The notes under the pieces: generated by a model | Databases searched by the model: none | What the model was told of the DNA's origin: nothing | Seen by the model: only the letters and a program-made list of their open reading frames with translations | In this document: positions 8,324-22,381 of the stretch, one piece after another | Layout: the number at the start of each line of letters is the position of its first letter | Position numbering within the stretch: the stretch's first letter is position 1 | Source: Methanoplanus limicola DSM 2279 | GTDB lineage: Archaea; Halobacteriota; Methanomicrobia; Methanomicrobiales; Methanomicrobiaceae | DNA: 64,000 bases | Assembly: GCF_000243255.1 (NCBI RefSeq) | Contig: NZ_CM001436.1 | Span: 1,762,957 to 1,826,956, forward strand | Reading direction: 5' to 3' | Program-made: the position numbers and the translations under genes

Positions 8324-9118
8324 ATGCAGTATATTGTGCCCCTGGCAATCTCATCGTTTGCTGTAATAATGACCCTCCTATATGCGTCATACAGGGATAT
8401 CCTTGAACGGCGGGTGCCCTTTAAGACATGGTACCCCATGCTGACTGTCGGAATTCCGATGACATTGTGGACTTACATGATTTTTTTTGGAATTCAGATT
8501 CATTTTGCCACAGGCATGATAATAATGACATTGATCTTCTCCTTAATGTTTTACTTTATGTCGGCATATCTTCACCTTTTTGGGGGTGCAGACGCCTGGG
8601 CAATGATATTTATCTCCATATTAATTCCATTCTATCCGCTACAGCCAATATGGGGGATTCCCCCGTACCAGTTTTTCCCTTTCAGCGTTTTTGTGAATGC
8701 TGTCATCCTGAATCTGACAGTGCCGGCTGTACTGCTCATATATAACATACTGAAGGGGAATAGGGCGCCCATCAAATATATGATGATCGGGTATCCGGTA
8801 AAAAGTGACTCCCTGACTGACCATTATGGATTTATTATGGAGGAATTTGAAGAAGATGGTGACGGGATAAAAAGGCATTTTATGACATACGGCGGCTCAC
8901 TTAAACGAATGGTTGAAGGGAAAAGAAGGATGTATACTGCTGACATAAGAAAAAATCCTGAGGATTATTCAAAAGAGATAACATATTACAAAAAAGCAGG
9001 ATCTGTCTGGATATCCTACGCGGTTCCGTTTATCATCCCCATCACTGCCGGATTAATTACAGCTCTGATATTTGGAGATATCCTCTTTGCTTTAATCAGC
9101 GTATTTACAGGAGCTTAA
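8324..9118 (+). CDS. Archaeal prepilin/preflagellin peptidase (A24 family)
   Basis: Membrane aspartyl protease that cleaves class III signal peptides from pilin or archaellin precursors. The 264 residues have about six hydrophobic segments. The two catalytic aspartates are visible: one in YRDILERRVP after the first membrane helix, the second in the GxxxD-type motif of LHLFGGADAWA. A charged cytoplasmic insert at about residues 150-225 is larger than in methanococcal FlaK. A GTG at 8282 would extend the protein by 14 residues; the ATG fits the family N-terminus and the TATA spacing. It is transcribed divergently from the filament operon, so it likely processes that system's pilins, none of which are encoded nearby. 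Confidence 0.88.
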   Translation: MQYIVPLAISSFAVIMTLLYASYRDILERRVPFKTWYPMLTVGIPMTLWTYMIFFGIQIHFATGMIIMTLIFSLMFYFMSAYLHLFGGADAWAMIFISILIPFYPLQPIWGIPPYQFFPFSVFVNAVILNLTVPAVLLIYNILKGNRAPIKYMMIGYPVKSDSLTDHYGFIMEEFEEDGDGIKRHFMTYGGSLKRMVEGKRRMYTADIRKNPEDYSKEITYYKKAGSVWISYAVPFIIPITAGLITALIFGDILFALISVFTGA

Positions 9119-20668: not shown

Positions 20669-20742
20669 GCCTCAATAGCTCAGCCTGGGAGAGCGCCAGA
20701 CTGAAGATCTGGTTGTCCCCGGTTCAAATCCGGGTTGAGGCA
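20669..20742 (+). tRNA. tRNA-Phe (anticodon GAA)
   Basis: A 74-base cloverleaf. The acceptor GCCTCAA pairs with TTGAGGC; the anticodon stem CCAGA/TCTGG holds CTGAAGA with anticodon GAA; the T arm is CCCGG/CCGGG around TTCAAAT. The discriminator base is A. CCA is not encoded. Confidence 0.96.
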
Positions 20743-20908: not shown

Positions 20909-22072
20909 ATGAAAAACCCTTTTCATGTCATGCTGATCCCGACACTGGGATGTCCCGCAAACTGTGAGTACTGCTGGAGTTCTGATACTAATTCTCCTGT
21001 TATGCCAATTGAGACAGTTAAGGAGATTGTTGAATGGCTCAAAGACTTCAGGAAAGACGACCGGGTAACATTTACATTTCATGGGGGTGAGCCTCTGCTT
21101 GCCGGAGAGGAATTTTACAGAAAAGCCCTGCCTCTGCTTTCAGAAGGTCTGAACCATCTTAATCCAGAATTTGCCATACAGACCAATCTCTGGCTTATGA
21201 CTCCTGAAATGGCAAAAATTCTTGCTGAATACAGAGTTCCTGTTGGTTCAAGTATAGACGGTCCGGAGGAGATCAATGACCTTCAGAGAGGGAAAGGCTA
21301 TTACAGGAAAACGCTTGAAGGTTATAAGACTGCAATTGAAAACGGCCTTAGTGTCAGATTTATCTGCACCTTCACAAACCAGTCTGCAAAAAGAAAGGAA
21401 GATATCTTTGAATTCTTCTATGAAAACGGCCTTGTAATGAAGCTGCATCCGGCACTTCCCTCTTTAAGGGGCAGTGATCCGGATAAATGGGCGCTGCCTC
21501 CTGAGGAGTATGGTGAACTTCTGGTCTATCTTCTGGATATGTCGCTTGAGCATCTGGATGATATGGAAATTATGAATATCAGTGATCTCTGCCGTAGCGT
21601 TTTTACAAGAAGAGGAAATGTATGCACTTTTGCTGACTGCATGGGGACAACATTTGCAATAGGACCTGACGGTGCAGTTTATCCATGTTATCGCTTTGTA
21701 GGGATGCCCGAGTATGCCATGGGCAATGTTCATGACCGCCCGACAATGAAAGAACTCTCAGAATCCGCAGCCTGGAAACTTATGCACGATTTTAAGGATT
21801 ATGTAGATTCTGCATGCAGTGAATGCAGGCATATCAGGTACTGCCGCGGTGGATGTCCGTATAATGCAATAGTTCCCTGTGGCGGAAAGGTTGCAGGAGT
21901 TGACCCGCATTGTCCGGCATATAAGAGAATATATGATGAAATTACTGACCGGATGGATAATGAGATGTTCAGTTCACCGCCTCCGGGAATGTCACATTTC
22001 GGCGGGATGAACGGAGATAAAGAAATTCCCGGAGTGATGTCGCTGATCAGAAAAATTGTTATGAACCAATAG
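20909..22072 (+). CDS. Radical SAM/SPASM enzyme, putative peptide-modifying type
   Basis: A 387-residue radical SAM enzyme. The SAM-cluster motif is C15-x3-C19-x2-C22 in TLGCPANCEYCW. FHGGEPLL (the GGEP motif) and SSIDGP are typical of the anaerobic sulfatase maturase and quinohemoprotein-modifying branch. The C-terminal SPASM region holds many Cys (VCTFADC, VYPCYRF, CSECRHIRYCRGGCPYN, then later Cys) able to bind two auxiliary Fe-S clusters. I associate this architecture in methanogens with a putative peptide-modifying family (Mhun_1560-like), from memory. No Cys-rich precursor peptide is seen next to it. It is followed by a convergent small membrane protein gene. Confidence 0.87.
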   Translation: MKNPFHVMLIPTLGCPANCEYCWSSDTNSPVMPIETVKEIVEWLKDFRKDDRVTFTFHGGEPLLAGEEFYRKALPLLSEGLNHLNPEFAIQTNLWLMTPEMAKILAEYRVPVGSSIDGPEEINDLQRGKGYYRKTLEGYKTAIENGLSVRFICTFTNQSAKRKEDIFEFFYENGLVMKLHPALPSLRGSDPDKWALPPEEYGELLVYLLDMSLEHLDDMEIMNISDLCRSVFTRRGNVCTFADCMGTTFAIGPDGAVYPCYRFVGMPEYAMGNVHDRPTMKELSESAAWKLMHDFKDYVDSACSECRHIRYCRGGCPYNAIVPCGGKVAGVDPHCPAYKRIYDEITDRMDNEMFSSPPPGMSHFGGMNGDKEIPGVMSLIRKIVMNQ

Positions 22073-22159
22073 GAGTTTCAGCCGGAATTTTTGCTGAACA
22101 TCTCTCCCACTGAAAAGGCCCCGGCAACTCAATAATTCAAAAATAAGAAAACTCTCTTT

Positions 22160-22381
22160 TCATTCCAGTCTTATGAACCCATATGATATGATTAAAATTC
22201 CGGTGACCAAAAGAAAAATCGAAAATATTACACATGCCGGATTACAGTCAACTGTGAACATGCCCCCTTCTGCACCACCAAAAGAACCAATGAATCCTGC
22301 AACAGGAAAGGCAATTACAAATCCTGCAAATATAAGTGCATACCTCTTAAATGAGCCAAACAAATACCTGACAAATTCCAT
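22160..22381 (-). CDS. Small membrane protein with two predicted helices
   Basis: A 73-residue protein with hydrophobic helices at about residues 13-33 and 49-70, joined by a loop containing DCNPAC. Charge distribution (KR near residue 12, R at the C-terminus) places the loop outside the cytoplasm. No family is recognised. It is convergent with the radical SAM gene (87 bases between stops) and lies downstream of nothing obvious. A weak GGG-type ribosome binding site precedes the ATG. The coding call rests on the clean hydrophobic pattern. Confidence 0.6.
   Translation of the reverse strand: MEFVRYLFGSFKRYALIFAGFVIAFPVAGFIGSFGGAEGGMFTVDCNPACVIFSIFLLVTGILIISYGFIRLE

Follow-up and report, generated by a model that had tools for sequence, protein, structure and literature searches.

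We propose a model in which the radical SAM/SPASM enzyme encoded in a 64,000-nucleotide stretch of the Methanoplanus limicola DSM 2279 genome, referred to here as the window, would act as a maintenance modifier on methyl-coenzyme M reductase (Mcr), not as a peptide maturase. That Mcr is the substrate we regard as quite probable, and that didehydroaspartate is the product as moderately probable. The complete reading, in which the family TIGR04083 is the didehydroaspartate synthase of Mcr, a SPASM enzyme desaturating an aspartate in a large metabolic enzyme, appears to us to have slightly better than an even chance of being correct. No precursor peptide accompanies the enzyme, probably because its target is McrA, part of the methane-making enzyme. 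The preliminary description of this locus had placed the enzyme in the frame of peptide maturation, which is probably wrong, as the distribution of the family, its recurrent linkage to mcr and a known modification of McrA point to one conserved protein substrate. Maturation of another protein, which that description had held against its own reading, is now the outcome we think likely, though it is unproven.

Both open reading frames of the locus lie where the preliminary description had put them (Table 1), and its assignment of the larger one to the radical SAM/SPASM enzymes is borne out by the family match, the radical-SAM motif and the SPASM domain, all of which are present. The NCBIfam profile TIGR04083 matches the enzyme at 675.7 bits (E 1.4e-203, curated cut-off 300) over its full length, with positions 1-376 of 376 of the profile covering residues 6-382, and Pfam places Radical_SAM (PF04055) and SPASM (PF13186) domains in the same chain. 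The enzyme is a member of TIGR04083, the match being far outside chance, and the family is one already catalogued and as yet uncharacterised. In an alignment of 38 sequences, with a mean column identity of 71%, all 11 cysteines (three of the radical-SAM motif and eight of the SPASM domain) are invariant and are predicted to hold iron-sulfur clusters; by analogy the eight SPASM cysteines would bind two auxiliary clusters, and the assignment of each cysteine to its cluster follows the same analogy. Identity to the protein of the window is 62-72% across orders. The C-terminal tail retains a PGVM-like motif and has a linker of variable length, and a precursor fused to the enzyme in this tail is unsupported, the tail consisting of that linker and a short helix.

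Table 1. Features of the enzyme locus, with positions counted in the window.
Feature	Positions	Strand	Basis
tRNA-Phe (GAA), upstream neighbour, outside the system	20669..20742	+	ARAGORN
Radical SAM/SPASM enzyme, family TIGR04083, 387 aa	20909..22072	+	ORF (ATG start), profile match
Radical-SAM cluster motif C15-x3-C19-x2-C22	20951..20974	+	PF04055; alignment
SPASM domain, C239 C244 C260 C303 C306 C312 C316 C335	21623..21913	+	PF13186; aligned with 4k36 SPASM region
YPCYRF motif with Tyr261	21680..21697	+	Comparison with 4k36 and 5wgg
C-terminal tail: linker residues 357-371 (low confidence) and predicted helix 376-385	21977..22069	+	AlphaFold2; alignment
73-aa orphan membrane ORF with DCNPAC, outside the system	22160..22381	-	ORF list, profile and genome searches

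The AlphaFold2 model of the enzyme (pLDDT 86.4, pTM 0.84) finds its closest solved fold in the anaerobic sulfatase maturase 4k36 (TM 0.78, Z 35.3, rmsd 2.8 over 352 residues), followed by ChlB and the thioether maturase 5wgg/5why, a ranking of folds that cannot tell a peptide substrate from a protein substrate. As the sulfatase maturase is an oxidising SPASM enzyme, we count the likeness of the predicted fold in favour of a desaturase. The same likeness, together with a sequence that among solved structures is also nearest to 4k36 (24-25% identity), is what would make the enzyme itself an anaerobic sulfatase maturase, a role we consider very improbable. The sulfatase maturase profile TIGR03942 scores 165.9 bits against a cut-off of 349.45, and sulfatases (PF00884, E<=1e-5) have no match in the genome of the window nor in 10 of 15 carrier genomes, this one included. 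Furthermore, Tyr261 takes the place of the aspartate of the sulfatase maturases directly after the same (third SPASM) cysteine, where 4k36 reads YPCD and 5wgg reads YPCH, and this tyrosine is kept in 38/38 and 36/36 relatives of two overlapping sets. The aspartate in question we take to be D277, the catalytic base of anSMEcpe. With the cut-off missed, the active-site residue different and sulfatases lacking, we reject this role, and as a general role for the family it is contradicted by the sulfatase-free carriers.

A peptide maturase would be expected to show its precursor, and the preliminary description, which reported none, holds on this point both at this locus and across 89 loci, within the limits of the ORF search. 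That search took ORFs no shorter than 25 aa from up to 6 kb on either side of the enzyme and grouped them into families (E<=1e-4, coverage of 50% or more), of which the 70 commonest (seven or more loci) were examined, a setting that very short, fast-evolving or rare peptides could escape. Every family found in at least 19 of the 89 loci is the enzyme or overlaps it, and the commonest family that does not overlap it, in 17 of the 89, consists of ABC-type proteins some 300 aa long; no linked short conserved precursor gene stands among the 70. The Cys-rich precursor model TIGR04165 gave nothing above its 60-bit cut-off in 15 carriers, with matches below it in seven (27.0 bits at best, 19.1 bits in the genome of the window). 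TIGR03973 gave nothing in the same genome, a result that weighs little as the control was also silent. On the 70 commonest ORF families of the 89 loci and the sub-threshold TIGR04165 matches in seven of 15 carriers, a linked precursor peptide is rejected. There remains the reading that the substrate is a conserved small peptide of methanogens encoded elsewhere, which would yield a RiPP or a cofactor derived from a peptide. The name 'peptide-modifying' carried by TIGR04083, the many SPASM relatives in NCBIfam that are peptide maturases (DynA, CbpB, PapB) and the motif YPC-x-x-F-V-G common to the enzyme and the thioether maturase 5wgg all speak for such a peptide, but the precursor searches described here speak against it, as do the usually single copy and the high identity across orders, both atypical of a peptide system, and we hold this explanation to be unlikely. 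As a separate observation, a peptidyl-prolyl-isomerase-like gene lies divergently upstream of the enzyme in 12 loci. The example examined, in L018 (Methanocorpusculaceae) at -520 to -13 from the enzyme start, is presumably a peptidyl-prolyl isomerase.

The 73-aa ORF had been put forward in the preliminary description as a candidate substrate through its DCNPAC loop. Its position, convergent with the enzyme gene and 87 bp away, is the sole point in favour of this idea. Neither NCBIfam at E<=1 nor Pfam above cut-off gives a match for the ORF. In a family sample of 28 genomes its protein occurs in one, its own, and the second genome of the genus lacks it, although that sister species carries the enzyme. 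That the enzyme modifies this loop is therefore hardly credible. Of the earlier overall reading, the SPASM enzyme without a linked precursor stands and the DCNPAC candidate falls.

The distribution of the family was read from 392 genomes of the phylum, in which the enzyme and mcrA were each called at E<=1e-60. The enzyme is found in 133 of the 392, a count that, like those of linkage below, comes from related genomes and so not from independent ones, and is usually present in a single copy. A copy of at least 570 bits is held by 130 of the 133 carriers, the others being G364 and G373, in which the gene is split over contigs, and G319, which has an internal stop. In the class of G139, taken to be Methanosarcinia, 153 of 237 genomes carry the enzyme. 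Twelve non-carriers searched again at E<=0.001 returned at best 132.6 bits, leaving carriers and non-carriers well separated. Among the 133 carriers, mcrA is matched at E<=1e-60 in 128; the remaining five (G145, G163, G295, G366 and G389) are all in several contigs, and three of them hold mcrA pieces, with G295 and G366 giving no mcrA match. Conversely, 170 genomes gave no mcrA match at E<=1e-60, and no carriers other than these five are among them; 94 of the 222 mcr-bearing genomes are without the enzyme. The family behaves as a core gene, and the gene is nearly confined to mcr-bearing genomes. Methanocaldococcus jannaschii, a control species that lies outside the modification table consulted, gave no TIGR04083 match above cut-off. 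Two copies merit separate mention. The one in G319 (C47:64335-65450), which matches TIGR04083 at just 209.8 bits and contains one in-frame TGA, is perhaps a decaying gene; three other listed members of its genus (G157, G231 and G354) have intact copies. The strongest match below the cut-off in the 12 non-carriers, G265:C1:2281849-2282958, is possibly a sulfatase maturase.

The genes for the enzyme and McrA lie close together in a part of the carriers. Positions of both were listed for 102 of the 133 carriers, and linkage was defined as a distance within 5 kb. Both genes share one contig in 59 of the 102, and in 21, belonging to seven genera of five families, the gene lies at most 5 kb from mcrA, a number to be set against a chance expectation below one (by simple arithmetic, for a target of 13 kb and a genome size of 1.6 Mb or more). 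It is always past the 3′ end of mcrA, on the same strand in 20 of the 21 and with a gap of less than 500 bp in 17. A named record with this arrangement is Methanoregula sp. SKADARSKE-2 (L013), where 171 bp separate the two genes. The 21 linked carriers comprise ten of genus g59 (family f8), five of g12, two of g14 and one, convergent, of g11 (all three in f3), and one each of g16 (f5), g27 (f7) and g88 (f22), the last being G216 with a gap of 4,786 bases. No linkage within 5 kb is seen in the other 81, the genome of the window included; there the enzyme gene lies about 1.2 Mb from mcrA, and the suggestion of the preliminary description that the substrate is unlinked is true for this genome. 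A further 51 genomes of the class of G139 include nine with both genes on one contig, and in six of these (G515, G520, G530, G531, G532 and G533) the enzyme lies 0.5 to 5.2 kb from the McrA loop, the four of genus g117 being convergent. Two arrangements and several families of linkage to mcr suggest repeated selection rather than a single old accident.

Within genus g59 the gene is present in some members and absent from others. In carriers G095, G073 and G061 (three of the five examined) it separates mcrA from a gene that begins MQYSLGIDAGGTFTD; G206 has a different gene behind it, and the G135 stretch did not extend far enough to show this position. In all five non-carriers examined (G246, G260, G265, G348 and G375) the MQYSLGIDAGGTFTD gene comes next after mcrA, about 190 to 285 bp from the match. 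The enzyme gene of G061 is directly followed by a truncated second mcrA 3′ end (L112 about 8336-8699; G061:C1:2695835-2696198). The DNA of this truncated copy is continuous with the downstream flank in non-carriers G265, G314 and G375, and the same match ends near the mcrA end in the other listed carriers and in non-carrier G324; the intact mcrA of G061 plus the bases behind it also match the truncated copy (84.8%). Such an arrangement would fit a recombination event that inserted the enzyme gene, or the local duplication of a segment around this gene. In the mcrA tree of g59, carrier G061 clusters with non-carriers. Elsewhere, the tree places the enzyme of G021 (L123, family f7) among those of family f22 with a support of 0.987, and this copy was probably acquired by horizontal transfer; of the f7 genomes listed, G001 and G011 are without the enzyme and three have it. 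When McrA of 10 carriers was compared with that of 9 non-carriers in g59, a single column, at the N-terminal end of the frames, told the two groups apart.

The distribution was compared with the modifications reported for McrA. Didehydroaspartate, reported in the active-site region of Mcr in 2016, is given in Table 1 of PMC9081873 as present in M. acetivorans, M. barkeri and M. marburgensis, and as absent from M. shengliensis, M. wolfeii, M. kandleri, M. formicicus, M. thermolithotrophicus, ANME-1 and E. thermophilum; PMC12413448 adds ANME-2c and ANME-2d to those that have it, and for the organisms or clades with didehydroaspartate among those compared here we draw on PMC7058361 and PMC12413448. 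Our comparison rests on three organisms (M. acetivorans, Methanoperedens BLZ2 and E. thermophilum) and two clades (ANME-2c-like and ANME-1-like), with M. marburgensis, which is outside the phylum, M. wolfeii and M. shengliensis falling outside it. The enzyme is present in M. acetivorans (a named control; G383, with an McrA identical over 561 residues to 8gf5_A, which we take to be the M. acetivorans structure) and in Methanoperedens BLZ2 (L044), of ANME-2d. ANME-2c is represented by family f39 (ANME-2c-like; its member G415 best matches 9qm5), where the enzyme is present in 12 of the 17 draft genomes listed, the five without it being 68-90% complete. Genus g73 (Methanosarcina) has at least 30 carriers, among them G330, whose McrA is closest to 1e6y, the M. 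barkeri enzyme. E. thermophilum (G388, with an McrA identical over 595 residues to 7b1s_A, its ethyl-CoM reductase) has no TIGR04083 match above cut-off, the best reaching 61.7 bits, and in the ANME-1-like family f10, whose member G005 best matches 3sqg, the enzyme is found in 0 of 37 mcr-bearing genomes, those of f10 and f39 being mostly incomplete drafts. Presence of the enzyme agrees with didehydroaspartate in all three organisms and both clades, and none clearly disagrees. Separately, G251 was considered as M. shengliensis, being the sole identical match to a published peptide, yet it is another organism.

The other modifications in the table fit less well as products. Thioglycine, N1-methylhistidine, methylarginine and S-methylcysteine are listed for E. 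thermophilum (Table 1 of PMC9081873), where the gene was not found, and are rejected for this reason; N1-methylhistidine is also given there for ANME-1, and the gene was not found in the ANME-1-like family f10. Methylglutamine and 6-hydroxytryptophan are rejected as they are absent from M. acetivorans, a carrier. Moreover, the passages of PMC5943407, PMC11796369, PMC9081873 and PMC7058361 name enzymes for methylarginine, methylglutamine, thioglycine and methylcysteine, which in these sources leaves N1-methylhistidine and didehydroaspartate as the only modifications of M. acetivorans without an assigned enzyme. This elimination makes didehydroaspartate the product that fits best. A review from 2020 and a structure paper from 2021 call its enzyme unknown (PMC7581889, PMC8070964), and none is named in the literature searched, most subscription papers being outside that search.

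The enzyme may instead act on Mcr in another way, through a new modification in McrA, McrB, McrG, McrC or McrD or through a step in the loading of F430, since linkage and near-restriction to mcr-bearing genomes point to Mcr and not to one residue. New modifications are indeed still emerging, as with the 3(S)-methylhistidine described on McrG of ANME-2d in PMC12413448. Against this, the distribution of didehydroaspartate already fits, and N1-methylhistidine is shared by E. thermophilum and ANME-1, in neither of which the gene was found; we give these other roles in Mcr about one chance in five.

Returning to didehydroaspartate synthesis, we infer McrA as the substrate and Asp470 as the site, along with the entire chemistry of the reaction. 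The enzyme would bind the nascent or unassembled alpha subunit, McrA, and a 5′-deoxyadenosyl radical would remove a hydrogen from the aspartate beside the thioglycine loop (Asp470 in M. acetivorans, within GYDLQDQC or GFDLQDQC). The auxiliary iron-sulfur clusters would accept a second electron and a proton would leave, giving the C-alpha=C-beta bond. Sulfatase maturase oxidises its residue through abstraction of a C-beta hydrogen, with the electrons passing to auxiliary clusters. As the aspartate of that enzyme is replaced by tyrosine in the 36 relatives, a different base is to be expected here. Carriers and non-carriers both conserve the aspartate loop of McrA and hence cannot be told apart by the sequence of the substrate; a site that exists without the enzyme would be in keeping with a dispensable modification. 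A possible route, put forward as speculation by analogy with PapB, may run through a transient Asp470-Cys472 thioether that is later eliminated. A cysteine stands at the position of Cys472 in 49 of 49 McrA sequences from carriers against 36 of 41 from non-carriers.

If this model is correct, a family labelled as peptide-modifying and conserved without a precursor would be explained, and didehydroaspartate would be assigned to a single gene, one that the genetically tractable Methanosarcina acetivorans carries. SPASM enzymes would gain desaturation of an aspartate in a core protein; we know of no other SPASM enzyme with this activity. Genomes could then be used to predict the modification in methanogens and methane oxidisers, which would aid the expression of active Mcr elsewhere. 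Should M. marburgensis, which has didehydroaspartate, prove to be without TIGR04083, a second enzyme must exist.

Among known systems, the catalogued family TIGR04083 (rSAM_pep_methan) is the one of which the enzyme is itself a full-length member; its label, 'peptide-modifying', is a hypothesis (hypoth_equivalog) that names no substrate, and McrA is the substrate proposed here. The sulfatase maturase anSMEcpe (PDB 4k36-4k39) resembles the enzyme in fold over nearly the whole chain and in having two auxiliary clusters, which are predicted in our case. It carries out a two-electron oxidation of a protein residue, which by analogy is likely to be the reaction type that both share. The two differ in that identity is just 24-25%, an invariant tyrosine stands here for the aspartate there, and sulfatases went unmatched in 10 of 15 carriers. 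PapB and the SCIFF-type maturases, of which 5wgg is one, share the SPASM domain, and 5wgg also the motif YPC-x-x-F-V-G. They act on small precursors, as a rule linked to the gene of the maturase, whereas none was found beside the enzyme here. PapB forms Cys/Asp cross-links, as described in PMC9413430. Mmp10/MamA (Arg), MgmA (Gln), YcaO-TfuA (thioglycine) and McmA (Cys) act on the same substrate that we propose for the enzyme, but belong to other classes, comprising two radical SAM methylases, a YcaO/TfuA pair and a SAM-dependent methyltransferase, and the fold match to MgmA (9ccb) is weak (TMq 0.39). To our knowledge none of the enzymes that modify McrA is a SPASM dehydrogenase. Finally, passages of PMC5943407 and PMC7058361 place the Mmp10 gene beside mcr in many methanogens and the McmA gene beside mcr in M. 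acetivorans, an adjacency that resembles the linkage of our enzyme in 21 of 102 carriers.
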